Below are positions 10,187 through 36,387 of a stretch of DNA of 64,000 nt, piece after piece. A program made the translations under genes and the position numbers. The stretch comes from Branchiostoma floridae. Lineage: Eukaryota; Chordata; Leptocardii; Amphioxiformes; Branchiostomatidae. Every line of letters starts with the position of its first letter. Position 1 is the stretch's first letter. The stretch spans positions 33,789,978-33,853,977 of the forward strand of contig NC_049982.1 in NCBI RefSeq assembly GCF_000003815.2, written 5' to 3'. Under the pieces are notes generated by a model. It made no database searches and had not been told where the DNA came from. It saw nothing but the letters and a program-made list of their open reading frames with translations.

Positions 10187-10231
10187 ATGCTTTTGAAGCA
10201 TACGTCGTGTAATCACGTGACATCCACGTGG
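10187..10231 (-). promoter_or_regulatory. paired hairpins in the 3' region of the minus cytokine-like gene
   Basis: In the gene's sense direction, 25 bases after the stop codon, comes CCACGTGG-ATG-TCACGTGA (10231-10213). It forms a 7-bp stem including one G-U pair, with an ATG triloop. About 11 bases later comes ATGCTT-CAA-AAGCAT (10201-10187), a perfect 6-bp stem with a CAA triloop. The plus-strand paralog has the same two hairpins in the same order. As DNA, TCACGTGA is also an E-box/CLEAR-type site, so an enhancer role is the alternative. Confidence 0.55.
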
Positions 10232-10255
10232 ATTCTCGCGAGAATTTAGTGTTAC

Positions 10256-12306
10256 TTATCTGCGGTACTTGGCAGTCAGGATCGTGAAGTCCCTGTGGAC
10301 TCTGTAGACCAAGCTCTTGAACTCCCGAAGCACCACGCAATCTCGGATGGAGCGGGCGTACTCACCAGGAGGATCCTGTAGAGTGGTTGACATGATCTCA
10401 GAAACGTCGTCGGAAGATGTAAAGCCCAAAACGTTGTTCTGAAAAAAAAAATGTTTAAGATTAAGACTTGAAAGAAGTATATGCTGACATGTACGGTCAG
10501 ATTCTCCTTTTAAGTGTAATCTAAGTCGGAGAAAATCAAAGTACGTCAGGTTGAAATTCGATAACTATCTGGTGTATTTGCAGATAGTGCCATAGGCAGG
10601 TACCAAAAACCATCGTTGTGTGCGTTTGGGACATTTTGTATTTCCTAACGAACAAGTGTATTTACGATGGAAAGCAAAAAATCTCCAGATATCGTGTTTA
10701 ATCATTGAATTTGCAAGCATAGAATATTCGTATCTTAACACTGATTTCAACGATCAAATGCAGGAATAAGACCTTGTTGATGTTTTAGTATAGTGAAGCG
10801 GTGACTAACAATTCGTGATGGCACTGCAGTATGAAATGGACGGAAGATAAACTGGATTCGCATTAAGAGATATGGGTAAGATCTAGTCTTACTGTGACTA
10901 CAATGGCTGTCATGAGCCCGTTGAGCTGGTGAATTGTCGCCTCCACCGTGTCAGCGGTGTCCGTATGACCGTCCTTGTCCAGTTCGTCTAGCTTTACCTC
11001 CTGTAGGTACAGACCGAATACCTGCAGGTCACGGCGAAGTCGCTGGAGGCGCTCTTCATCCTAGATAGGAAGGAACAATTGTTGTCTTGATTGTACAATG
11101 GCACAAACTTCGTTAAATACATGTATTTGAATGATACAGTTCACGCAGAGACTATTTGTGAGCCAAGAGCAATATAGTTCTAACTATTGATTCACGTCGT
11201 TGGGAGGGAGGGAGGTCCGGTGAAATTTTTAAAAAATCTTGACCTCTGAAACGCCATTGCTTGCATTTTGAGAGGGCAACAAGATCGAAAGGAAGAAAAG
11301 CTTTCGAAACCTACATAACTGATTCGTATTTTTTTCATGGCCCTCCCCCAACCCGTTTTTTTTTCATGGCCCTCCCCCAAGCCCACCATTTTTAAAATTC
11401 CCCACTCCCTGTACACAAGCCATTCCCCGGTAAATCTATCGCACGATCCCTAAGCGTAAGGGACTGTGTAACCTCCACTGGACACGGTTCAAAGAAGTTT
11501 ACTATATAATTACACCACCGTCTGTCGTTCAGCCAAACAGTATGAGCTTACAAGAAAAGTCTCCAGCATGACGTCACATCCGTGTCAACGTCCTACAGTA
11601 CTTTCAGTTTTGTCATGCATATTAACACGGAAGTGTTTGTGTGTTAGCCAGGGTACATGTACTGCATATGTGCGTTTTCATACCTCCATTGCTCTCCACT
11701 CAATCGTAGTCATTCTGATGTCGATGAGTTCTTCCCATGTGATTTGCTCGGCACAGTAACCAAAGTTGCCTTTGAATTCGTCCTCGATCTGTAGAAATAA
11801 AAACAAAACATATACAGTAAAAACTTAGCTCATGCCTAGCGTAGGTACTATGTAGATAGATAGAGAGATAAGATACTGGACGTTCGTCGAAATTCAAAAT
11901 CGTTAATTTCGTAAGATTGCCTCGTGAAACTTGTGTAGGGGATTTTAACGTGTGTTACTACAACTGACTGAGAACAGTATTGACAAACCTCTATAATATG
12001 TGATCAAAACATTACGGGGTGTACGTTAATCGCTACCTTAGAGGTTTTGAACTTATGCCAAAAAATTGAAATAGGTAGCAGTATCAAATTAAGGAGAACA
12101 AATATAGGAGACAGGGTGTCAGGATAGTTTAGGATACTTACAAACGCATCGTAGGCGGCCGTTGCTTTTTCGTGTAGTCTCAAGGTTAGGGTTCGGGAGT
12201 TCATTAGCACTTCCAACGGAGTCTGCTTCGGGAAGTCGGAACTTGTAGCTGGGATGGGCCCTGCACTGGTCCCGCAAAACACCAGGAGTAGTACCACAGC
12301 TATCAT
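10256..12306 (-). CDS. secreted four-helix cytokine-like protein (CNTF/IL-6-type), copy 1
   Basis: Coding exons on the minus strand are 12306-12142, 11788-11684, 11060-10893 and 10438-10256 (stop TAA). All introns are GT-AG and phase 0, giving 206 residues. A noncoding first exon ends at 12475 and joins an acceptor at 12323. Residues 1-16 or so are a signal peptide (MIAVVLLLVF..). About 30-55 form amphipathic helix A. Residues 56-90 are the AB loop with Cys67. Residues 91-146 hold helices B (DEERLQRLRRDLQ) and C (TIHQLNGLM). Residues 147-206 hold helix D, starting at IRDC (Cys180). Size, exon plan and helix patterns fit long-chain class I cytokines. By eye, ERLQ..DLQ in helix B, TIH.L in C and VLREF..LV.R.HRDF in D recall CNTF/CLCF1/LIF. 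Such ligands act outside the cell on gp130-type receptors. A growth-hormone-like protein is the main alternative, since an AB-loop-to-helix-D disulfide is also typical there. Confidence 0.8.
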
Positions 12307-12311
12307 CCTTG

Positions 12312-12317
12312 TCACAT
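12312..12317 (-). promoter_or_regulatory. start-stop minimal upstream ORF
   Basis: In the spliced leader of the minus cytokine-like gene, ATG is followed at once by TGA, and the main ATG begins 5 bases later (12306). In other mRNAs such start-stop elements hold ribosomes and lower translation of the main frame. The plus-strand paralog lacks it and instead begins with three tandem ATG codons. Confidence 0.45.
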
Positions 12318-12474
12318 GAGCTTCTGTTAAATTGACGTCAAACTAGTAAATCTATGCACCATGTAAACGCAACGGCTAAAGACGTCAAAGGGTTTCAAAA
12401 ATGATGCCGAAGGCTGCACTGCAAGAGGAATTGGCATAAAACGTTTTTGATATAGTTTGAAAAAAAATACTCAC

Positions 12475-12731
12475 TTTTCAAGAGAGAAGAAAGAGCGTTG
12501 TTGAACGCTGCACCCATAGTATGTCTGGAGTAAGCTGTACGAAGATCTTCTCAGACAGAAGTTTTGAGAGTTGTTACGCTGCCCTCTTCTTTGAGGTCGC
12601 TTGGTTTCTTCAATGTTGAACATTTTTCTCGGCCTTTTTATGCAATGCAGATCAGTTGAGCTAAATTTAGTAACGCTTCCCAGATTAGCCAAGAGAAACT
12701 GCATACGTCAAATGACCGGATGGGGTTTTCC
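12475..12731 (-). promoter_or_regulatory. promoter and noncoding exon 1 of the minus cytokine-like gene
   Basis: Reading in the sense direction: GGAAAACC (12731-12724), 23 bases, AGTTTC, 52 bases, a TATA-like CATAAAAAGG (from 12642), then CCGAG. Transcription should start near 12610, and exon 1 runs to the GTGAGT donor (last base 12475). The plus-strand paralog shows the same words in the same order and nearly the same spacing. GGAAAA is the core of Rel/NFAT-type sites, and AGTTTC is the reverse of an IRF half-site. Factor identity is inference. Confidence 0.5.
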
Positions 12732-12739
12732 GGTGGAAT

Positions 12740-14230
12740 TTTCATCCGTAACTTATTATCAACAGGGGATGGTGCTACTAGTAACACGTGGTCTTATTCA
12801 TCAGTGACACTTTTCAAATCATCACGTTCTTCGAGTTCAGTACAGCGAAAGTATATTTCTCATTTACAGGTATACTATTCATTTTTACTTCCGGACGTTG
12901 ACAACGAATGAGTAACTTCATTAATAAAGTTAATGTATAATGAAATGTTATCATCTTCACCATTTTCAGTGAGCTTTTTTGTTGTCACGCGCTTAATGCG
13001 CGCCTTTATGAAGAACGCCCACATATATTGTGAAGACCCGTATCCGCAGTGTATCCCAAAATAGGAACACTCACTCATTGAAATAAACAAGAACACGTAC
13101 GTATACCTATAGCAACATTGTGCATATTCAAATCACGTGGGTGCGAAAGTGATAAGAATTATCTTGAATGCTGCACTTAAAAGGAATGAGGGTATTTTTA
13201 TGAATACAAAGTATTAAGATGGATAAAGTTATCTTGAAGGTAGGAAAAGACAAAATTTGAATGAATCTATGCTAAATATTTATAGATAGTCCGTTTCTTT
13301 CTATAGATATGATACATGCTGGCAATCCACAGAGGCCGGATGGCGGCCCATACACTAACACATGACAAGCGAGGGGGTTTCCCAGGCCATTACGTCATGC
13401 TTTGTACACCGGAAGTATAAGGTCGCTGGTGGCCTGTGCCAGTGTGTGGCGGAAGTGAGCTGAGTGGCAGCCTCCGGGCCACTTTGCAGTCGTTAAACAG
13501 TTTATGATTCATGTCTGAGGTCTATGGAGTTATCATATGGAACACTAGGCTGGATTTAGCGAATGATAGGGGAATCTTTTCACATAAAAACCTTCCGATT
13601 ATCCATAAACGTTGACAGATTTTGCCATTTCCTAAAAATTTCAAGTAAGTTCATGTAATACTTACCCCTGTCTATTAGTACTGGCGCGGTGTACAAGACA
13701 GGGCTGCGCGCTCGAAAAGTTTCAAGGGATTTGAATACAAAGTTCTGAGTGGTTTGCCACAGTATTCATGGCGTTGCACATGATACTAACGAATTGTCGG
13801 AAGATCCACACGTATCTTGTCCCACTGTTCTCTCTTTTAACCAAGGAGTGACTTAGCAAATTCCAGAGGCGCACTCCTCCCCGGGTTCACTATGCGCAGT
13901 CATGTCGTTGACGCAATGAAGTCCCGGGAAGTTGCACTGTACACATCCCGGCGACATCCCCGATTTGAATCACGGAAAATTCCAATTGCTTTTGTTGCAA
14001 CCCAGACTTCCTGGTTCAGTGACCTCGGATTCATTAAGAGTTTCCTCCTAAACGGAAAGATCATACAGGAATGTTCCTATTTAAAAAGACTCCATTCAAA
14101 TCAAGGGAACGAATGCGCAACGTTATCAGTCACTTGTATTACTTTCGTCTATCTATGTTTCGGCAGTGTTTGATCTTTCTGCAATATCTATTTATAGTAT
14201 CTATCTGCAGCATCTATTTATCAACAGCAT
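12740..14230. other. intergenic, no gene seen
   Basis: This is the part of the divergent intergenic space nearest the minus gene. I see no exon-like segment with matching splice sites and family motifs. Confidence 0.5.
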
Positions 14231-14234
14231 CTAT

Positions 14235-14516
14235 CTAGATAGATGGATAGTGTCCATACATACATGTATACAGAACTATCTACAGTATCTATCTAGATGG
14301 ATAGTGTCCATACATACATGGATACAGAATCTATCTACAGTATCTATCTAGATAGATAGTGTCCATACATACATGGATACAGAATCTATCTACAGTATCT
14401 ATCTAGATAGATAGTGTCCATACATACATGGATACAGAATCTATCTACAGTATCTATCTAGATAGATAGTGTCCATACATATATGGATACAGAATCTATC
14501 TACAGTATCTATCTAG
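14235..14516. repeat. 55-bp tandem repeat (minisatellite), about 5 units
   Basis: The unit contains GATAGTGTCCATACATACAT and then AGAATCTATCTACAGTATCT. Successive GATAGATAGT starts at 14351, 14406 and 14461 give an exact 55-base period. It runs directly into a CTGT microsatellite. Confidence 0.85.
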
Positions 14517-14517
14517 A

Positions 14518-14553
<36 letters not shown>

Positions 14554-14715
14554 CGTCCGTCCTTCTGTCTGTCCGTCTGTCTGTCTGTCTGTCCGTCCGC
14601 CCGTCCGACTGCCTGTCTGTCTGTCTGTCTGTCTGTATGTCTGTCTGTCGTCCGGCCGCCCGCCTGTTTGTCTGTCTGTCTGTCTGTCCGTCTGTCTGTC
14701 TGTCTGTCTGTCTGT
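14517..14715. repeat. (CTGT)n microsatellite with CCGT variants
   Basis: About 200 bases of CTGT tetranucleotide repeat, interrupted by CCGT, CCGC and CGGCCGCC variants. The long open frames on both strands are artefacts of the repeat. Confidence 0.9.
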
Positions 14716-14729
14716 GTACAAGATAATTC

Positions 14730-15830
14730 AAGAATGGTTGAATGGTCGTGTTGCGAACTTCTTAGGGGAAATGAAGATCGCGAACGGCACGATGCGGTAG
14801 GCACGACTTCAGGGAAGCCAGGCGGCTAGGTAAAAGCTGTACGACACTTTGGAAAGTTTGGGAAATAAGTTGTGATAATATGATACCTATTCGACGTTTA
14901 AAAAACTTATGTGATGGGCACAACACGATTGAGGAGATGATCTCGGGAAACGAATGTCAAGAAACTCATTTTGTGGGAGCGGGCGTTAAGAACCATACAT
15001 ACACGACCGTGACGGTAGTTCTTTTACTCAAGTTCGCAGTTTTACCCTGAACGTCAAGAATCAGACTTTCATCAACAAACTATAAGATCTACAAATCATA
15101 CTTAAGCATGGTAAATAATTCCGCGAATACTTCTCCAATACCAGTATTCAATCCCTACTATGTAACATTTTCGCTGCTCAATTGAAAGTATTCTCGAGAA
15201 CAAAACCTTCCTGTGGATGAGATGTACCGACACTTCTCAGCATAATCGTGGTGGCTTACAGCCTTTCGGCATGGTCAGTTTAGCAGTAAGTTTAGTTATT
15301 CTGGTGTATGTATGTATGTATGTATGTGTGTTTGAGTTTCTAAAATCCATCTCAAACTAGAACATCTTTGTGTAAACAACAACGTAACTGTACACTGGTG
15401 GATCTCCTAGGATTGACTAAGACTAGGGTGGGCTAATGATGAAAATATGCTTAAAATTAGTTTGACACATCTTTCATATGAAGGTTTTGTTGTAGAAAAT
15501 ATTCTAAAATTTGGAGCCGAACTGTTGCATACTGGCCATGGATTTCTAAATCTCACGCAATGGTAACGTTAGTGGTAAGAGAACTGGAATGGCTACAGTA
15601 TATGTTCCCGACTAGAATTTTGGATTATCTTTCCGCCACGTCTCCTACATTAAGTTATTTAACCTGGATAACATTCTCACCATTATAGATTCAATTATCA
15701 TGGCATAGAAGTCCCTGAATCAATTTGGGGAAGTCAGCAATTATTCATTTGTTCGAACTAAAGCACTGAAATGTTCTATAGAATCGTGCATACTGGCAGC
15801 TATTTCCAATCATGCTTTTAGATTTCAACT
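14730..15830. other. intergenic, no gene seen
   Basis: Unique-looking, A/T-rich sequence with a short GTAT run near 15305-15325. No exon or recognisable element was identified. Confidence 0.5.
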
Positions 15831-15836
15831 TCCTAA

Positions 15837-17556
15837 TACCCCTGTCACATTAGGCGAAAATCGATCGGACGACGATTCTGCGGCAATCGCCCGAGCCTCG
15901 CTTATAATGATAACTTTATTGCACAACAATTGTACAAGGTACAGAGTATGACTTAGATGTGGCAGGGATAGTTTTCAGGTGAAAATACCCTCTGTCGATC
16001 TTTAATATGGCCGATCTTTACGAAGCCGTCGAAGGACCATTTGGACAAAACCTGTTTTAGCGAAGAATATTTGTGCTCACAGCGAAGGGGCTGCATGCTC
16101 GGCGAAAGAGCTGTGTGCTCACAGCGAAAGAGCTGTGTGCACGCAGCAAAGGGGCTGCGTGCTCAGCAAACGAGCTGTGTGCTTACAGCAAATAGGCTGT
16201 GTGCTCGGCGAAGTGCCTGTGTGCTCACAGCGAAAGAGCTGTGTGCTCACAGCGAACGGGCTGCGTGCTCACAGCGAACGGGCTGCGTGCTCGGCGAACG
16301 AGCTGTGTGCTGTGTGCTCGGCGAAGGAGCTGTGTGCTCACAGCGAAAGGGCTTTGGGCACCAGGTTGAAGCTGGTCGCTGATTGGTAGCCGCCGATCCA
16401 GCCGCCGATTCGTCATTAAACAAAACAAAACATAGCATCCCATTCAGACGCCCATTCGAAGAAAGTAAAAATTCCTAATTTCCTTTAAAAGCTTAAATGG
16501 ATATCAAGAACTACTGGATATTGTCTATTACCACCCAATATATAAACATAGATAATAACAGAAAATATTATATCAACGATTAAGCACGAATAATAGGCCC
16601 AATCGGCTGCCAACTTTAGCCTGGCTTTTAGATAGCGCATATCTAAAAGTGAATTTAGATAGCGCATATCCTAACCTATTCAAAACAAGTATCAAATCTT
16701 ACGGCCCGGATCTAATTAATGAACTAGAGGGGAACTATCTAATTTACTAATAGCTATAGGAAATATGAAATACCCAAGCAAAGGAGGTGCTAAAATCGGC
16801 TGCCATACGGCTTGTAGAGCAAACTGCTACTTATCTAAACGCGGACCGTTAACTTTTAAGACGAATTTAGATAGCGCATACCCTAAGGTATTCAATCCAA
16901 GTATCAAATCTTACGGACCGGATTTAATTGATAAACTAGAGTTGAAGCAGTTTGGTCTATAGGAAATCGGCACTGAGCTCCAGTTCATTAATTAAATCCG
17001 GCCCGGAAGATTAGATATTTGTATCAAATACGACAGGTATGAGCTATCTAAATTGCACTTAAAAGTTCATGGCCAACGTTTAGGTAAGGGCCAAATTGCT
17101 CTATAGGCCGTATGGCAGCCGATTTTAGCGCCCCTTTTCTTAAATGGGTATATCCTATTAGATAATTCCTTCAAGTTTTTTAAATAAATCCGGTCCGTAA
17201 GATTTGATACTTGTTTTGAATACATTAGGATATACGCTATCTAATTTCGTCTTAAAAATTCACGGGCCACGTTTAGATAAATAGCAGATTGCTCTACAAG
17301 CCGTATGGCAGCCGATTTTAGACCGTGAAGTTTGCCGATGATTGGGCCTATTAGTTGTGCTTAATCGTTGATATAATACTTTCTGTTATTATTCATGTTT
17401 ACATATACATATATTGGGTGGTAATAGACAACATCCAGCAGTTCTTGATATCCATTTGAGCACACAGCTCCTTTGCTAAAACAGGTTTTGTCCCAATGGT
17501 CCTTCGTAGATCTTCCATCGATACGCCCGAAGATCGTGGATAATGTGACAGGGGTA
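15837..17556. mobile_element. foldback DNA element with ACCCCTGTCACATTA ends
   Basis: TACCCCTGTCACATTA at 15837 is exactly inverted as TAATGTGACAGGGGTA ending at 17556. The arms pair well beyond the ends: AAAACCTGTTTTAGC near 16048 versus GCTAAAACAGGTTTTG near 17475, and GGATATCAAGAACTACTGG near 16499 versus its inverse near 17440. Inside are four copies of a block of about 85 bases (AGCGCATATCCTAA, TATCAAATCTTACGG), two direct (about 16655, 16862) and two inverted (about 16990, 17185). No transposase was found, so it is non-autonomous. It sits between the two cytokine-like genes. Confidence 0.8.
16060..16352. repeat. 20-23-bp minisatellite inside the foldback element's left arm
   Basis: About 13 units of the form GCTGTGTGCTCACAGCGAA(A/C). 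The right arm has only a single equivalent unit (about 17458-17475), so the array expanded in one arm only. The translated Cys/Ala-rich frames are repeat artefacts. Confidence 0.8.
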
Positions 17557-17559
17557 TAA

Positions 17560-18400
17560 ATAAACTTCAGAATAAGCATTAGAACGGGCATTTTCATTCC
17601 ATTTCCAAAATTAGCGCAATCCAATTCTTGAAATTAAAAAAAATCTAAAATTGGTTTGCGCGTTTATTTTGTAACTTTTGATTGATTTCAAAATATCATT
17701 TTCAATAACCAGGATTGCACAGTTTTAGTTTCTCTTAGATTAAGATTTTGCTCGGTATATTTCTTTTTGTGAAGTTTGCTTCTCAATGAGGTACTTTTGT
17801 TTTCCCATTATGAAGTACACGAAGAAACCATGCGGTAAATATATCGTGGACAATTAGATGACAACACCTGGTAACGTTACGATGAACACACAGAAAACTG
17901 TCATCGAAAGTTTTCCTGTTTTTTCGTAATCTTAACGTTACGTATATTCTTTCTACACGTTTACACCTGATCTAACCACGAAAGTAAAAAAGGGAAACTC
18001 TAACAATCATAGCGACAATTCTACTTCAGGAAATAAATGAACGCTACTTCCTGTCGATTTCAAATTTGCTTTAAATTTTGTTATACCTGCCAACCTGCCT
18101 GACAGGTCAAAGTAAGCTCAAATCAATGACCAATCTACTTAAAAGTTTCTTATGTGGATGTTAGGAAATAGGCACTTCTTCCTGCCAACTTATATGCATA
18201 GTGAGTCCAAGTCCTTAAACCCTGCATACGTAAACTGAACGCTTTTCGTAATGTTAAATAATCCAACTACCGCTCGTGAATTGGGACTTTAATGTATATG
18301 GTATTGAATGCGTTGGAATTCCAGAGATGACTGGTAAATACCTCATACCATTGGATCACTCCCCGTGAGCTACGAACGGTATGTGATGGTGTTGTAAAAA
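17560..18400. other. intergenic, no gene seen
   Basis: A/T-rich sequence between the foldback element and the plus-strand promoter. Nothing coding was recognised. Confidence 0.5.
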
Positions 18401-18404
18401 TCTT

Positions 18405-18626
18405 GGGGAAAACCACGAAGACCTTTTTTTTTCTCTCCAGAGTTTCACACCGTCATCCGACACTGGAGTTGCCATCTTTTGTTAAGCCTCCACATAAAAA
18501 CCGAGCAAATCAACCAGGCAGGCAAAATAGTCGCCACAAACAGCGGATCTGGAGAAGACAACTTTTGTAGTGGACAATCTAAGAAAGATCATTTTACGCC
18601 TTCAGTTCCAGTATTCAATGAAGCAG
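18405..18626 (+). promoter_or_regulatory. promoter and noncoding exon 1 of the plus cytokine-like gene
   Basis: GGGGAAAACC (18405-18414), 26 bases, AGTTTC (18441), then a TATA-like CATAAAAA (18493-18500) followed by CCGAG. The gap from GGAAAACC to CATAAAAA is 78 bases here and 81 in the minus paralog. Transcription should begin near 18520-18525. The leader exon ends at 18626 before GTAAGAA and splices to 18872 just upstream of the ATG cluster. Confidence 0.5.
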
Positions 18627-18874
18627 GTAAGAAACTGTTTTATAGAGTTAAATTTTACCCGTTTGTTTATTTTGTAATGGAATCTCTGCACCCGCTAATT
18701 CGTTAATAGTGAGAATTGAACTTTTATGTTAAAACTTATATTGTAGATATTCTAGAAAATATATATTTTACATTGATATATTCATTTCAAAGTACTTTTA
18801 TATATATTTTACTGTAATGCCTGATGCACTTTTAATCATATCTTTACTGCTTGTCTGTGTTGTTTTACAAGTAC

Positions 18875-21480
18875 ATGATGATGAAAATGATCGCATTCAC
18901 CGTGGCGCTTCTCCTGACGCCAGGCGGGTGCAGTGCAGGCCCCGTCCCGACCACCCAAGCTCTGCTGCTGACCCCGTTAGAAACGATCATGAACGCCCGG
19001 ACTCTCGCCGCTAGAGTGTACGAAAGGGCATCAGATGCCTACGATACCTTTGTAAGAGCTTTTTCGTTGCTTATAACCCGTTCCTCTACATCTTAAAGAT
19101 TATGATTTGTTGTAGTGAGTTTATGCCTGTGTAGTTTAACGTTGAATCCTAATATAACGTTATAGGACGATTCTTCTGTCATAAACGTCAAAATTCATGA
19201 GGAAGCGACACGTTTCCCCCACTTCACTTCCTCTTTTGACACACTTCACCAGCTAATTCGTCACCTAGTCATGATCAATGAAGCTTACACTCATTTTTTC
19301 ATTTTCATTCTACACTCTAAGTAGCGGTTGGTGAGAAGACTGAAATCTTTATCATATGCCCCGTTTTCTTTCAGTTGGCCCCCAAAGGTCAATCTTTCCA
19401 CCAACCTGCGCTATTGGAGTAGGCCAAACCTGCACCAGCGTACTTCCTTGTTTTGTTGAACATTACTTACTGCTATCAGACCACTTGATCTGCGTGAGAC
19501 TCAGTTAATATGTATCAGTTGCCAAACTTATCTCTACGATACAAGGGGGCATACATGCCAACTGTACCGCGGAGGCTTTGAGAACTCAACTATGACGCAA
19601 AGCAACTACGTGGTCTTTTGTTATTCAAATGAGGCTGTGCACACCTCAAGCATGCCACACAAAAACCTGCCCTTGCTCTCTGACCCAGCGTTAAGGTTAA
19701 TCTTTGCCTGTATACATTTGATAGATTCAGGACGAATTCGGCGGCGATTCTGGATTCTGTGTGGAGGATATAACTTGGAACGAACTCTTCAGTGTTCGAA
19801 TCCCAACCCTGGAGTGGAGAAACTTTGGGGTAGGTAGAATTCAGCAAGGTTTTCGTTCACTTCCGGGTTGTTGCATGTGTGCTATTTTTATCGGTTTATG
19901 AACGGATGTGATTTCGGGACACTTCTTCCACATTCTTCCATATATGGTAGTGACAGAGTGTCTGAAGTCTAGGACATGTTTACTTTACGTCCTGGTCAAC
20001 ATTTACGTAATTGGAATAGCTGCTCAGACTATCGGATAAAGTAGCCTGTATTACGCGACTTTTATGGAACATTGGCCTCAAATCTTTTCTAGCTGACATA
20101 CGTTTGTGAGGAAATTTGGGCAGAAGCCTAAGTATGTATACTTTTCTCAAACTTTATTCACAGAAGGACATGCTGCGTTAAACACAGGTCGGTCATAACC
20201 GAACACTTAATAAATGTCCTGTGACATTTGTATACTTGAAGAATTGAACATGGATGTAAAGAAAACGTCCACATTTCTAAGCCATCGTTTGGAAGAAATA
20301 TTCTCTGTTCTGATATTTCCATCACGATTGACTTCCATTGTGCTAGGTTGTCCTACTTGGTACGTATGTTTAGGTAGCGTATACGTATACAACTGCACAT
20401 TGTGCTAGGTTTCTCCATTTGGTATGTGCATGTATGTTTCGGTAGTGCATACGTAGACAAGTGTACATTAACACAGCGCACAAAGCACTGTGATAACAAA
20501 GTGTGTTAACAACTGAGTCAAGAATGCCGTTAGCCTACATATTTTCAGCCTGTATTTTGTGAAGAATTTTCTTATTTATTTGCGGTTCCTCTCCATATAT
20601 CCGCTTGGCTTTGTTTCTAACTGTTTCACCGTGTGAAGTTAATATCAAGGGCATTATATATGTAATCTATCTTGACAAAAGTACAACGACTTTATTCAGG
20701 TCTTCTACATCTATACCTACATATAAACAAGTGGATACAGACATGATGACAAACAGCATTGCGTTTAACACGTTTTCACCACTAGCTCTAGGGTCTAATT
20801 CTTTATCATATGTACCCATTTCTACACGGTAAGGGTTTTCTGCTCATAGAATATGATGATCTATAGGATGGAATGTATTGAATTCTTTATAAGGTTATAT
20901 AATGCTCACGGCTTTATTACCTAACTTTACCCATCAAGGATGAGGAGCGCCTCCAGCGGCTTCGCCGTGATCTGCAGTTGTTCGGACTGTTCTTGGACGA
21001 AGTCCTGCTGGACGAACAGGATAAGCAGGGCCACACAGACACCGCTGACAAGGTGCAGCAGACTATTCACCAGCTCGACGGGCTGATGGTAGCCATAGCC
21101 ATTGCGGTAAGATACGTATCAGCATTTCTACATTACACAATGTATACAGCAGTAGTAACTTAAGTAGAATCTTCCACTTGAAACCCAAACATCTCCCACA
21201 TTATCCTCCTTCAAAGTAGTTTTCTTCAAAGGTAATTTTTGAAGTGCTTCTTTGTCAAATAACGACAGATTTTAAGTATTTCTTTCTACTCTCCCCACAG
21301 AACGACGCCATGGGCTTCATCCCTCCTACCGACGTCACCGAGATCATGTCGGACAGCTTGCGGGACCCAGCCACCGAGTCCGCCCGCGCCATCCGCGACT
21401 GCGTGGTGCTGAGAGACTTCAAGACCCTGGTCGAGAGGGGCCACAGAGACTTCACCCTGCTCAGCCGAAAATACAGTTAA
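18875..21480 (+). CDS. secreted four-helix cytokine-like protein (CNTF/IL-6-type), copy 2
   Basis: Coding exons are 18875-19051, 19725-19829, 20939-21106 and 21301-21480 (stop TAA), with phase-0 GT-AG introns, giving 209 residues. The acceptor before ATTCAG at 19725 is chosen so that exon 3 is 105 nt, exactly as in the minus paralog. The start is one of three tandem ATGs at 18875-18883; a later in-frame ATG is at 18887. Residues 1 to about 21 are a signal peptide ending CSAG. Helix A covers about 33-59. The AB loop (60-94) carries Cys71, helices B and C lie in 95-150, and helix D in 151-209 carries Cys184. Counting by eye, identity to the paralog is 18/35 in exon 3, 42/56 in exon 4 and 36/59 in exon 5. 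The two Cys would tie the AB loop to helix D. The role as an extracellular receptor ligand is inferred from fold pattern only. Confidence 0.82.
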
Positions 21481-21520
21481 ACGTTGTCACTTTATTTACT
21501 TAAACTTGTTACCTGAGAAA

Positions 21521-21711
21521 TCACGCGAAAGTCGTGTGAATATAATTAGCCCTGTTTATGCCCTGTTTATGGAGAAACTACGTGAATGTCACGTGACCGC
21601 AGGTTAACCTGCTCTAGAAGAAGTCACGAATAAGTAACATGACGCCTTAACCTGTTCCGATAAAAACTTCACGTGAACGTCACGTGATTATGATGTATGC
21701 TTTGAAAGCAT
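21521..21711 (+). promoter_or_regulatory. four hairpins in the 3' region of the plus cytokine-like gene
   Basis: Three stem-loops of one design follow the stop codon: TCACGCGA-AAG-TCGTGTGA (21521-21539), CTACGTGA-ATG-TCACGTGA (21578-21596) and TCACGTGA-ACG-TCACGTGA (21669-21687). All have 7-8 bp stems and an A-N-G triloop, and substitutions are mostly absorbed by G-U pairs. Ten bases after the last is ATGCTT-TGA-AAGCAT (21697-21711). The last two correspond in order and spacing to the pair behind the minus paralog. Confidence 0.55.
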
Positions 21712-28540: not shown

Positions 28541-28689
28541 TTTCGCAGCAATGTCAGTTTGCAAACGTCAGTTCGCAACAAGGCAAGTCGTTTCGCAACA
28601 GGTACAAGTCGTTTCGCAACATTTGAATTTTATTAATCTTGAAAGCCTATTAGTATTAGAAATCCTAACATAATTATGCTATAATTATA

Positions 28690-31600
28690 CCGCGTAAAAA
28701 TCTGGGAATCACACTGGGAATTGGCACATGGAATGTCAGAACACTTAACGCTCAACAATTGGAATATGAGCTGACGATCTATAGATGGGATATTATAGGA
28801 ATAGCTGAGGCAAGATTAACAGGCACAAGCGAACTAGTCACTGATGAAGGGCACACTGTTTACTATAGTGGTCATGAACGTCTACATCAACAGGGTACTG
28901 CGATAATGGTACATAAGAAGATCAAGGCGGCCGTAATCGAGTTCCACCCTGTTTCAAGTCGACTTATGGTACTACGTTTTAAATCCACTCCATTTAATCT
29001 CACTGTGTTACAGGCGTATGCGCCAACGGCAGAAGCCTCCAGTACAGATCTGGATAACTTCTATGATGACTTAACCCAAACAATGCAAAGAGTTCACAAG
29101 AAGGATATAACCATACTACAAGGAGATTTCAACGCAAAAATAGGCACAGATGCCCACAAGGATTGGAAAGGGACAGTGGGTAAGCATGGACTGGGCAAGA
29201 CAAATGACAGTGGCCTACGTTTACTAGAGTTTGCTAGGTACCATAGCCTAGCTATAGTAAACACCTATCCACGACACAAAACCAGCAGGAAGGCAACTTG
29301 GCACTCGCCAGGTGGCAAAACCCACAACATGATAGTACATCCTCATAGGGAAAAGACACTTGAGTAGCCTAAACCTAGCACAAACCCGCACCTTCCCAGG
29401 TGCGGATGTTGGGAGCGATCATGACTTAATAATGACAACACTAACAGTCAGTCTGAAGACACCGCATAAAAGGGAAAACGCAAGAACACGCTATGACACA
29501 GAAAAACTTAAGGACCCAAGCATTCCACTTCCTCTTCCCTTGCCTCTTCCCTCATGACCTCAATGAAAAGCGGCCTGCAGGCTGATTTGAGCTTTCATGA
29601 ATAAATAAAGGTTCAAACAAACAAACAAAACAATTCTTGCTGCATTCCAGGAGGACGTGGAAGCAGATTTCACCCCTACTGCCGACAGCATTGCAGAGGA
29701 CAAACTCGCGACTGAAGCAGAAACAAATCTGAAAGCTGCGGCAGAAAGCATACTAGGGAAAGCACGGCGAACAAAACATCCATGGATATCAGCTGAAGTC
29801 CTCCAAAAGTGCGACGACAGAAGGGAAAGGAAAAAGGTTAGATTCAAAACACGACAAAAGAACAATGAGTATCAGAATGCAAACCGGGAAGTTAAACGGG
29901 CCATTAGAGAGGCAAAGGAAGTATGGATACGCCAGGAGTGCAGTAAGATAGAAGAGGGCATACAGAACAACAACACTAAGCAAGCATACCAGACTTTGAA
30001 GACACTGACTCAGAAGACGGTAAACAGAAACACAGGCATCGAGGACGACGAAGGTAACTTATTAACTACAAAAATTAAAGTTAGACATAACAAGACGCTG
30101 GAAAGAGTACTGTCATGAGTTGTACAATTACCAGCTGACAGCAGAACAAGACGTACTGGAAGAACTGAAAGCACACACATGACAACTACAAGAAGAAGAT
30201 GACCCTGATATCCTTGAAGCAGAAGTGATCTCAGCCATCAAAACCTTAAAACTAGGAAAGTCACCCGGCATTGACAACATACCTGCAGAGTTACTGAAAG
30301 CTGGAGGTGACCCCCAGTGGTCAAGGTGTACACTAAAATATGTAACCATGTATACAAAACAGGGGACTGGCCAGAGGACTGGACAACTTCTATTGACATA
30401 CCGCTCCCAAAGAAAGGAAACCTAAAGAACTGCCAGAACTATCGCACTATCAGCCTGATCTCGCACCCAAGTAAAATTCTTCTAAAGATCATCCTAAAGC
30501 GGCTTCAACCACAAGCTGAACAGATCCTCGCAGAAGAACAGGCCGGATTTAGGAAAGGCAGGTCCTGCGCTGAGCAGATCTTCAATCTACGTATTATCTG
30601 TGAGAAGTACAGGGAACTTGGGAAACCAGTGTACCACACATTTGTTGACTACAAGAAGTGCTTTGATAGGGTATGGCAGAACGGACTTTGGGCAGTAATG
30701 CGACGCTTCAACATAAGTCGGGGCATCATTAACTCCATTGAAGTACTCTACAAAGCGTCACAAAGCATAGTCATGATAGGCGACGAGTTCAGCGAATGCT
30801 TCCCAACGTCAGTAGGAGTGCGGCAATGGTGCCTGCTGTCACCAACACTCTGCAACATCTTCTTGGAGAACATCATGAGAGAAGCCTTGCTACCACTAGA
30901 GTCACCGGTCAAACTCGCAGGTCTCATCATCAACCACCTACAATTTGCCGATGATGTTGACATGATCGATGGCTGTAAACAAGACCAACAAACTCACTTT
31001 AGCTGCCTGGACTCTACCAGTAGGAGATACGGTATGGAAGTCAGCCTAGAGAAGACCAAGTGCGTAGTGACTGGCCCGTCAGACACAGTACAGGTTACAG
31101 TGAGAGGCACTGACCTAGAACAGGTTAGTGAATTTACATACCTGGGATCCCTTCAGACAGAGGACTGTAGCTCAGTGAGAGAGATAAAGGTCAGAATAGC
31201 TAAGGCAACTTCCGTATTGTCAAGGTTAAAACACTTCTGGAATAGCCATAACATTTCCCCGCAAACAAAAATCCATCTACTACGCTCCCTTGTGTTATCA
31301 GTCTTCCTATATGGAGCTGAGGCATGGACTTTAAACGCTGAGATTGTGAAACGGATTAATGCATTCGAGATGAACTGCTACCGAAGACTACTCCGGGTCC
31401 ACTGGTCATCGCACACCACAAACAGAGAAGTCATGCAGCGTGTTAATGCCCTGGTAGGCCCGTGTCCCAGTTTCCTTTCGCTTGTGAAAAGAAGAAGCTA
31501 CAGTGGATTTGGCCATGCTACAAGAGCAAAGGTCACTCTGACTCACACTATACTGCAAGGAAGGGCGGAGGGTGTAAGACCTAGGGAACATCCACGACGG

Positions 31601-31733
31601 ACTTGGACTAGTGACCTGAAAGAATGGTCGGGACAAACAGCTAGAAACCCTGGCTGAAGATAGAAGATGGAAAACTTACGTTGATGGCATTGCTGCCCCT
31701 ACGGCCGGTGAGGCTATGGGACCGGTGAGGTGA
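28690..31733 (+). pseudogene. APE-type non-LTR retrotransposon ORF2, broken
   Basis: The endonuclease begins GTWNVRTL, continues with IIGIAEARL and QGDFNAKIG, and ends with GSDHDL near 29415: the order of conserved residues in apurinic-type endonucleases. The reverse transcriptase follows with NYRTISLISHPSKILLKIIL, EEQAGFRKGRSC, FVDYKKCFDRVW and the active-site box LQFADDVD (near 30943-30963), then YGAEAWTLN and a tail ending AAPTAGEAMGPVR and a stop at 31731. Breaks: frame changes near 29360, an inserted tail at about 29556-29636, stops near 30116 and 30180, and a frameshift near 31640. The protein copies element RNA into DNA at a nicked target; this copy cannot make it intact. No ORF1 was seen. 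Confidence 0.85.
29556..29640 (+). mobile_element. short retroposed tail inside the LINE
   Basis: TGACCTCAATGAAAAGCGGC, then TTTCATGAATAAATAAAGG and an AAAC run, interrupt the LINE protein between its endonuclease and polymerase parts. The AATAAATAAA plus AAAC tail suggests an independently retroposed 3' end of another element. Confidence 0.5.
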
Positions 31734-35474: not shown

Positions 35475-36387
35475 TTGGCAAGGATTTTAAAATGGCCATA
35501 TCTGCTGACAAGATCAAATGCCCCATATCTGTTTGTGATTGTCCTTGACTATGCACTAAGGACGGCTGCGGGGGGTAGGGAGGAAGAACTTGGTCTGCAA
35601 GTGGAGAGGAGGAGAAGTAGAAGGATTGGCCCGAAGGTAGTGACTGACTTGGATTTCGCTGATGACATAGCGCTGCTATCAGAGGCTATCCAGCAAGCAC
35701 AGGAACTACTCAGGTGTGTAGAGAGTTCAGTGGGCAAGGTTGGACTCTTATGAATGCTGGGAAAACTAAGTACATGGCCTTCAACATCCAGCCCCCACAC
35801 TGCCTCAAAACAGGTGATGGGTGTACCCTAGAGGAAGTAAAGGATTTTAAATACCTGGGGTCCAGAATGGAAATTTCAGCAAAGGACATAACAGCAAGAA
35901 AAGCAGCAGCCTGGCTTCCTTGCAACAGGTTAAAGAAGATCTGGAGATCTAACCTCACACGTGAGCTGAAAGTGAGGCTTTTCCTCTCGACCGTCGAATC
36001 AGTACTCCTGTATGGGTGCGAGTCATGGACACTTACTACCAGTTGGACGGCTGATATACGAGGTAACTAAGAACTGCTCTCAACGTCCACCGGTCACAAC
36101 ACATCACTAACAAAGTCTTGTATGCTGGCATACCAAAACTGTCCGATAAGATTCGAACTAGGAGATTAAAGTTTGCGGGACACTGCCTTAGGAGCAAAGA
36201 AATAGTTGCTGACCTGGTACTATGGACACCCAGGCATGGGAAGAGGAGGCCAGGTAGGCCAACAGCAACATATATAGACCTGCTCAAAAAAGACACTGGC
36301 CTTGAGGTTGACAATCTACATCAAGTAATGACTGACAGAGACGTATGGGTTGCCATCACAACTCGAGGCCGGAAGGACTCGCCTTAA
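35475..36387 (+). pseudogene. LINE reverse transcriptase, C-terminal half, broken
   Basis: The first frame has the active site FADDIALLSEAI (near 35652). After a frame change near 35735 comes NAGKTKYMAFN, then FKYLGSRMEISAKDITARK, VRLFLSTVESVLLYGCESWT. After another break comes SDKIRTRRLKFAGHC and GKRRPGRPTATYIDLL, to a stop at 36387. The tail is an AAGC-rich run. Same general type as, but clearly different from, the LINE at 28.7-31.7 kb. Confidence 0.75.

Follow-up and report, generated by a model that had tools for sequence, protein, structure and literature searches.

Two divergent genes, A and B, were characterized in a window of 64,000 nucleotides (the whole stretch of DNA analyzed) from the amphioxus Branchiostoma floridae. 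The encoded proteins probably belong to a family of secreted amphioxus cytokines of the long-chain class I helical type, whose C-terminal half is nearest to CLCF1 and CNTF, gp130-type cytokines of vertebrate nerve and immune signaling, and not to growth hormone (GH) or prolactin (PRL).

Gene A (10256-12306, minus strand, 206 aa) and gene B (18875-21480, plus strand, 209 aa) each contain four coding exons, and in both genes the three introns between these exons are GT-AG and of phase 0. The sequence-only reading had described a divergent paralogous pair sharing a phase 0 coding-exon plan of 165/177, 105, 168, and 183/180 nt, and a check of the splice sites and lengths confirmed this plan. The two genes are real, beyond chance. 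In gene A, exon 1 (12142..12323; coding 12306-12142, 165 nt) encodes a hydrophobic N-terminus and the proposed helix A, with a GT donor and a phase 0 exit. Exon 2 (11684..11788, 105 nt) encodes the AB-loop region with the invariant residues C67 and W86, exon 3 (10893..11060, 168 nt) the proposed helix B and the start of helix C, and exon 4 (10256..10438, 183 nt with the stop) the proposed helix D. The exons of gene B are found at 18872..19051 (coding 18875-19051, 177 nt), 19725..19829 (105 nt), 20939..21106 (168 nt), and 21301..21480 (180 nt with the stop). The two proteins are 62% identical. When the loci were compared by blastn (plus strand, E ≤ 0.01), parts of the four coding exons were found to align in order, and outside of the coding exons there were just two short 3' matches of 25 and 44 bases. 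The dN/dS values (nonsynonymous/synonymous divergence) for the pairs A-B, A-C, and B-C, where C is a third gene described below, were determined to be 0.27/1.08, 0.25/1.78, and 0.31/0.79, respectively, with dS near saturation. Genes A, B, and C are under purifying selection, with dN/dS well below 1. By inspection, the hydrophobic N-termini of these proteins are putative signal peptides.

A 5' leader exon may precede each gene, at 12475..12555 (minus strand, donor 12475) in gene A and at 18560..18626 (plus strand, donor 18626) in gene B. Both are putative exons proposed from the sequence, and their 5' ends are approximate. These exons may be short coding exons rather than noncoding ones, because the frames of upstream ATG codons stay open, from 12517 through the phase 1 junction 12475|12323 in gene A and through the phase 0 junction 18626|18872 in gene B. 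Between the two genes a long tetranucleotide-like repeat run (ATCTATCT..., then CTGT/CCGT units) was noted by eye at 14180-14720. A repeat with GCTGTGTGCTCACAGCGAA units, also noted by eye, occupies 15970-16390 and 17300-17500 and seems to have long, imperfectly inverted sequence on its flanks (about 16030-17480).

The gene A protein was used to search the genome (513 Mb, 431 contigs; the window lies on contig C4). Nineteen matches were obtained at E ≤ 10, and 12 of these fall on A, B, and C, one for each of their four exons. Gene C (C4:30972358-30974767) encodes a protein of 208 aa in exons of 174, 105, 168, and 180 nt, a plan like that of A and B, and the three proteins are about 60-65% alike. 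The seven distant matches (E 0.0065 to 2.6) correspond to gene D (C4:30.989 Mb, two matches), the tandem copies F1 and F2 (C15:10.35 Mb, four matches), and gene G (C17:12.318 Mb, one match). A genome search with F1 gave nine matches, which are F1 itself, F2 (93% alike), six to A/B/C/D (E 3.3e-4 to 3.4), and one on C11 that is stop-ridden. When four fetched loci were searched with profiles of A/B/C, exon 4 was recovered for all four distant genes, D, F1, F2, and G (E 6e-11 to 4e-5); exon 3 was recovered for D, F1, and F2 (E 1e-7 to 1.3e-4) and gave a value of 0.43 for G. Exons 1 and 2 of these four genes were not established in the fetched loci, and exon 2 was not found. By these matches the family numbers seven or more loci, spread over three contigs of chromosome size (C4, C15, and C17), a count that is a lower bound since 20 candidates were scored in the gene A search. 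A possible eighth copy (C4:30981.9 kb, minus strand; exon 1 match, E 0.00086) was rejected because its core seems, by eye, to recur there and no other exon was found. In F1 and F2 (C15:10.3537-10.3565 Mb) the interval that separates exon 3 from exon 4 can be read through in frame, so that open frames of 187 and 195 aa result.

The relationship to known cytokines was examined with a profile (A2) of six C-terminal halves, those of A, B, C, D, F1, and G, with F2 left out. Only one of 177,635 distinct PDB sequences was matched by this profile at E ≤ 10, namely human CLCF1 (8d7h_D, E 0.095), and the match is colinear up to the end of helix D. For the same six proteins or C-terminal halves, the top Pfam match was a gp130-type family in three cases: PRF for A (0.051) and C (0.0091), and IL11 for G (0.089). 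PRF (PF06875) is plethodontid receptivity factor, which we take to be a CLCF1-type protein. The exon 4 peptides of A, B, and C matched PRF alone (0.0067, 0.12, and 0.013, respectively); no Pfam match was obtained with the exon 4 peptides of D, F1, and G or with the three N-terminal halves. The consensus of the C-terminal halves matched PRF (0.03) and LIF_OSM (0.049), followed by three unrelated families (0.052-0.14), and gene A also matches three unrelated families (E 0.13-0.18). The only cytokine families found in Pfam were PRF, LIF_OSM, and IL11. Hormone_1 (PF00103) was not matched at E ≤ 10 by any of 15 forward proteins, halves, and exon peptides or by two consensus sequences, with HMMER filters that drop most weak matches. 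Reversed sequences, the reversal having been verified, gave a cytokine family in none of five cases and no match at all in four. NCBIfam, searched with gene C only, gave no match. The LIF_OSM and PRF families gave no match when run against the genome, and this null is no evidence of absence because no control rang either.

Such Pfam E-values mean little alone, because unrelated families reach similar values by chance. The weight rests instead on the repeated identity of the family (PRF, LIF_OSM, IL11) and on the register. It is very improbable that these are secreted helical proteins unrelated to cytokines: all single matches are under thresholds and the four-helix fold is only proposed, but the same few gp130-type families (PRF, LIF_OSM, IL11, CLCF1) were returned from two independent libraries, with divergent members and in the register of helix D, and gene B is orthologous to a protein with reported cytokine receptor binding.

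Profile A2 was also compared head to head with 11 human long-chain cytokines, using 1500 shuffles of each and counting the shuffles that reached the real score. With plain shuffles the counts were 0 for CLCF1, 1 for CNTF, 1 for IL-6, 8 for EPO, 14 for OSM, 24 for G-CSF, 29 for CT-1, 35 for LIF, 64 for GH, 96 for leptin, and 252 for PRL. When the shuffles kept the hydrophobic/polar pattern, the counts for CLCF1, CNTF, IL-6, LIF, OSM, EPO, CT-1, G-CSF, GH, leptin, and PRL were 0, 0, 5, 29, 33, 35, 36, 47, 104, 246, and 598, respectively. CLCF1 gave 0/1500 and the highest bits in all nine C-half profiles, six of which leave out one member each and two of which are built from disjoint sets of members (A, B, C and D, F1, G); CNTF ranged from 0 to 20 across the nine. 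Second place after CLCF1 varies, and without D the lead over IL-6 is small (11.8 vs 10.3 bits). A full-length A/B/C profile gave counts of 0, 2, 25, and 44 for CLCF1, CNTF, GH, and EPO, respectively.

Residue W86 is invariant in A, B, and C, and in an alignment of these three proteins with CLCF1 and CNTF it is aligned to W64 of CNTF and to a tryptophan of CLCF1. According to PMC10022904, W64 of CNTF packs on CNTFR alpha, the region of R171, H174, and R177 also contacts CNTFR alpha, and the sequence FXXK at the start of helix D is the motif of LIFR ligands at LIFR site 3. With the CNTF numbering checked, W64 and R171/H174/D175 were found to have counterparts in the family. The end of helix D, R-x-x-basic-D, is kept in A, B, C, and G and not in F1, and gene D keeps only the aspartate. 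FXXK is absent (YARS in A, SARA in B, and FARS in C); A, C, F1, and G retain the aromatic residue at this position, which B and D have lost. Since W86 and the basic end of helix D are present and FXXK is absent, the sequences favor a site 1 resembling that for an alpha receptor over a LIFR site 3, and the use of LIFR by the family is unproven. Hydrophobic moments of the four proposed helices are weak evidence at best, with the helix A stretch of C misplaced. Residues C67 and C180 are invariant in A, B, and C and are predicted to form an AB-loop/helix-D pair, at what we take to be the position of C53-C165 in GH. A disulfide between the AB loop and helix D is also carried by LIF and OSM. GH has a further, C-terminal disulfide after helix D; there is no cysteine after C180 in A or after its counterparts in B and C.

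A GH-like hormone of Branchiostoma japonicum, GHl, was reportedly described by Li et al. in 2014. Quantitative PCR primers for ghl of this species are printed in Table 1 of PMC5376476. In the window and 19 further loci, the best place of primer P19 is exon 3 of gene B, at 20985 (19 of 25 bases), and that of P20 is exon 4 of gene B, at 21318 (18 of 23 bases), in the right order and orientation. P19 alone is weak, as the best of 60 shuffles of it in the window also scored 19 (mean 17); the corresponding maximum and mean for P20 are 17 and 15.7. Read in frame, P19 encodes LFLDEVL, identical in B (LYLQEVK in A and QYLEEVK in C), and P20 encodes TQPTDIT versus IPPTDVT in B. Judged by these primers, gene B is the orthologue of the published amphioxus GHl. 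In PMC9010856, GHl is a 208-aa type-I helical cytokine that shares low identity with GH and lies nearer GH in a reported phylogeny, and several other type-I helical cytokine genes in amphioxus are mentioned. In PMC5376476, amphioxus is said to have "a single GHl gene". According to the two papers, GHl is produced in Hatschek's pit, binds GHRl in vitro, increases zebrafish growth and IGF-like expression, and raises the salinity tolerance of amphioxus. The sequence-only reading had proposed an unrecognised cytokine system with scarcely described ligands. This is wrong for gene B, because GHl has already been published as a type-I helical cytokine; genes A and C and an affinity to CLCF1/CNTF were not found in full-text searches that covered open-licence papers.

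Class I cytokine receptor genes are present in the same genome, GHRl on C15 and a gp130-like gene on C7. In a search of 15 loci, the published gh/prllbp (GHRl) primers fit the C15 gene, one with 24 of 26 bases and the other with 22 of 24, and on this basis the C15 receptor is the gene published as GHRl, the soluble GH-binding protein. It consists of an Ig domain and a cytokine-binding module with WSEFS, and in the WSEFS exon a stop is reached with no membrane segment before it, in line with the published soluble form. Among the best 60 of 116 phmmer matches of this module, PRLR is closest (3e-30), followed by CRLF1 (1.2e-21), gp130 (5e-20), the leptin receptor, and GHR (5e-11). GHRl combines a CRLF1-like layout with a PRLR-like sequence, and its reading as CRLF1 is neither proved nor excluded. 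Directly downstream on the same strand is a gene that seems, by eye, to encode a hydrophobic segment and a cytoplasmic part in addition to FN3 domains; a second receptor gene beside GHRl is also noted in PMC9010856. An intron of GHRl (C15:19052.2-19054.4 kb) holds, by eye, a tandem 58-base unit that copies the end of the D2 exon and its splice donor and could affect splicing. That GHRl is linked to OXCT1, a point raised in the literature for GHR, was set aside as non-discriminating because human GHR, PRLR, LIFR, and OSMR presumably all lie on 5p12-p13.

In the C7 receptor gene (20.674-20.697 Mb, minus strand), Ig exons were recognized by eye together with a cytokine-binding module that carries WSDCA, three FN3 domains, and an exon that may be cytoplasmic. 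No transmembrane exon was found at this locus, part of which reads N. The Ig and D2 portion matched Pfam EpoR_lig-bind at 28.9 bits, above the cut-off, and LIFR_D4 at 24.2 bits (cut-off 25). Among the best 60 of 115 PDB matches of the module with the first two FN3 domains, contactins and receptor phosphatases come first over the FN3 domains (1.2e-17), and the module itself matches CRLF1 (4.7e-14), PRLR (1.7e-13), gp130 (5e-12), and LIFR (1.3e-8). The C7 gene appears to be a gp130-like receptor with the layout of gp130. The gp130-like receptor suggested as a check in the sequence-only reading is accordingly present in the genome, and its proposal of a gp130/LIFR ligand gains support from this gene but not on the side of LIFR, whose motif is absent. 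Pfam IL6Ra-bind gave two genome matches, both under the cut-off. STAT-docking tyrosine motifs were looked for by eye in the receptors, and none is claimed. The receptor D2 exon occurs in two near-identical copies about 41 kb apart (C7:20.654 and 20.695 Mb), with a third relative at C7:19.44 Mb. Translated units like those of the GCTGTGTGCTCACAGCGAA repeat also occur, by eye, near this gene (C7:20673.9-20674.3 kb).

Several results, including the missing FXXK and the closeness of GHRl to PRLR, weigh against an affinity to CLCF1/CNTF. The N-terminal half (A, B, C) scored best with GH (7/1500), followed by EPO (13) and LIF (14), with 589 for CNTF and no score for CLCF1. In the shuffle test each cytokine was represented by a single human sequence. 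Single-sequence PDB searches with A and with C gave no cytokine, and a two-sequence A-B profile gave no PDB match. Three of the six proteins or C-terminal halves (B, D, and F1) are without any Pfam family match. All of the Pfam cytokine matches are under the curated cut-off (PRF at best 16.3 bits vs 22). CNNM (0.052) and DUF6847 (0.075) are among the unrelated matches of the C-half consensus, the full consensus matches Diox-like_N (0.14) ahead of PRF (0.23), and reversed gene G matches three unrelated families, down to 0.039 for Adenylsucc_synt. Synteny with the human CLCF1/CTF1/LIF regions gave no support: of the genes we take to be neighbors there, RAD9 is on C11 and not C4, BCL7 is on C76, and SF3A1 gave no answer. 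The likeness to CNTF/CLCF1/LIF in the sequence-only reading holds for the C-terminal half, where PDB, Pfam, and shuffles favor CLCF1/CNTF, and does not extend to the N-terminal half, which scores best with GH.

It is unlikely that the proteins are stem relatives of GH and prolactin acting through a GHR/PRLR-type receptor, as the literature says. The C67/C180 pair at the presumed GH position, the N-terminal half, and the PRLR-like module of GHRl would fit this explanation; the C-half counts for GH and PRL (104 and 598 vs 0 for CLCF1), the missing Hormone_1 match, with the filter limit given above, and the absence of any GH/PRL chain among the PDB matches would not. The cysteines of the C-terminal GH disulfide are absent in A, B, and C, and the AB-loop/helix-D disulfide is shared with LIF and OSM. 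The reported phylogeny and the biology of GHl, from its expression in Hatschek's pit and binding of GHRl to its effects on zebrafish growth, IGF-like expression, and salinity tolerance, also speak for a GH relative (PMC9010856 and PMC5376476). Part of the basis for the published GH assignment may lie in the N-terminal half.

Beginning from the gene models, the family, its sequence affinities, and the two receptor types, all of which were directly observed, a mechanism can be proposed for a CLCF1/CNTF-type family. The proteins would be secreted as four-helix bundles, in which site 1 would be made up of the tryptophan in the AB loop and of R-x-x-[HKR]-D, the basic end of helix D. This site would engage a partner with an Ig domain and a cytokine-binding module, such as soluble GHRl, and a tall Ig-CHD-FN3 receptor of the gp130 type would then join and signal via JAK-STAT. 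We tentatively suggest, at a little under an even chance, that the published amphioxus "growth hormone" and soluble "GH-binding protein" are, respectively, a ligand of the CLCF1/CNTF type and an Ig-CHD partner resembling CRLF1, in a pre-vertebrate family of seven or more gp130-type cytokines. It is also plausible, if slightly more doubtful than not, that the family represents an unsplit long-chain class I cytokine, co-orthologous to the GH, EPO, IL-6, and CLCF1 branches, with CLCF1 as the least changed descendant. Several cytokines beat most shuffles in the C-terminal half (from 5 for IL-6 to 47 for G-CSF), the N-terminal half sides with GH, EPO, and LIF, and GHRl resembles PRLR, CRLF1, and gp130 all together; set against this, CLCF1 is ahead in all nine C-half profiles, though second place varies. 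An unsplit cytokine and the probable family nearest to CLCF1/CNTF are not exclusive explanations, because they overlap and would work alike.

According to a 2026 survey (PMC13203501), IL-6 family cytokines are found only in vertebrates and IL6R-type receptors reach back to molluscs, which leaves the invertebrate receptors without ligands. An amphioxus family with an affinity to CLCF1/CNTF would help to fill this gap. If the published hormone and its binding protein are such a ligand and its CRLF1-like partner, IL-6-type ligands are not vertebrate inventions and another cytokine branch underlies the amphioxus GH/IGF axis. A family of this kind would also cast doubt on the claim of a single functional amphioxus growth hormone, which is part of the argument for Hatschek's pit as a pituitary with a GH/IGF axis. 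A multigene family, its CLCF1/CNTF affinity, and a matching receptor set challenge two printed statements, and the account of how the hormone originated may have to be revisited. The question can be tested directly, since others have already produced recombinant GHl and its binding to GHRl has been reported.

Elsewhere in the window, a LINE-type retrotransposon was identified at 28669-31657 (plus strand) by its endonuclease (PF03372, 1.2e-7) and reverse transcriptase (PF00078, 2.3e-33). A second fragment is found at 35666-36070 (DUF6451, 5.5e-6, just under the cut-off).

Among known systems, the family shares with CLCF1 and CNTF the AB-loop tryptophan, the helix D sequence R-x-x-[HKR]-D-F, and a colinear C-terminal stretch of 80 residues, and CLCF1 is the best match of its C-terminal half in the PDB, Pfam, and shuffle tests. 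It differs from them in scores that fall under the cut-off, the absence of FXXK, an N-terminal half without affinity, and two conserved cysteines; vertebrate CLCF1 also has fewer coding exons than the four found here. GHRl is like CRLF1 in having an Ig domain and a cytokine-binding module, with the module, however, closer to PRLR, and the C7 gene is like gp130 in its Ig, cytokine-binding module, three FN3 domains, and candidate cytoplasmic exon. The published GHl corresponds to gene B in length (208 vs 209 aa) and in the fit of its primers to exons 3 and 4. It was described as a single, GH-like gene, whereas we find A, B, and C plus four more distant loci, with a C-terminal half on the side of CLCF1/CNTF. 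With gene B already known, the size of the family and this affinity seem to be what is new.

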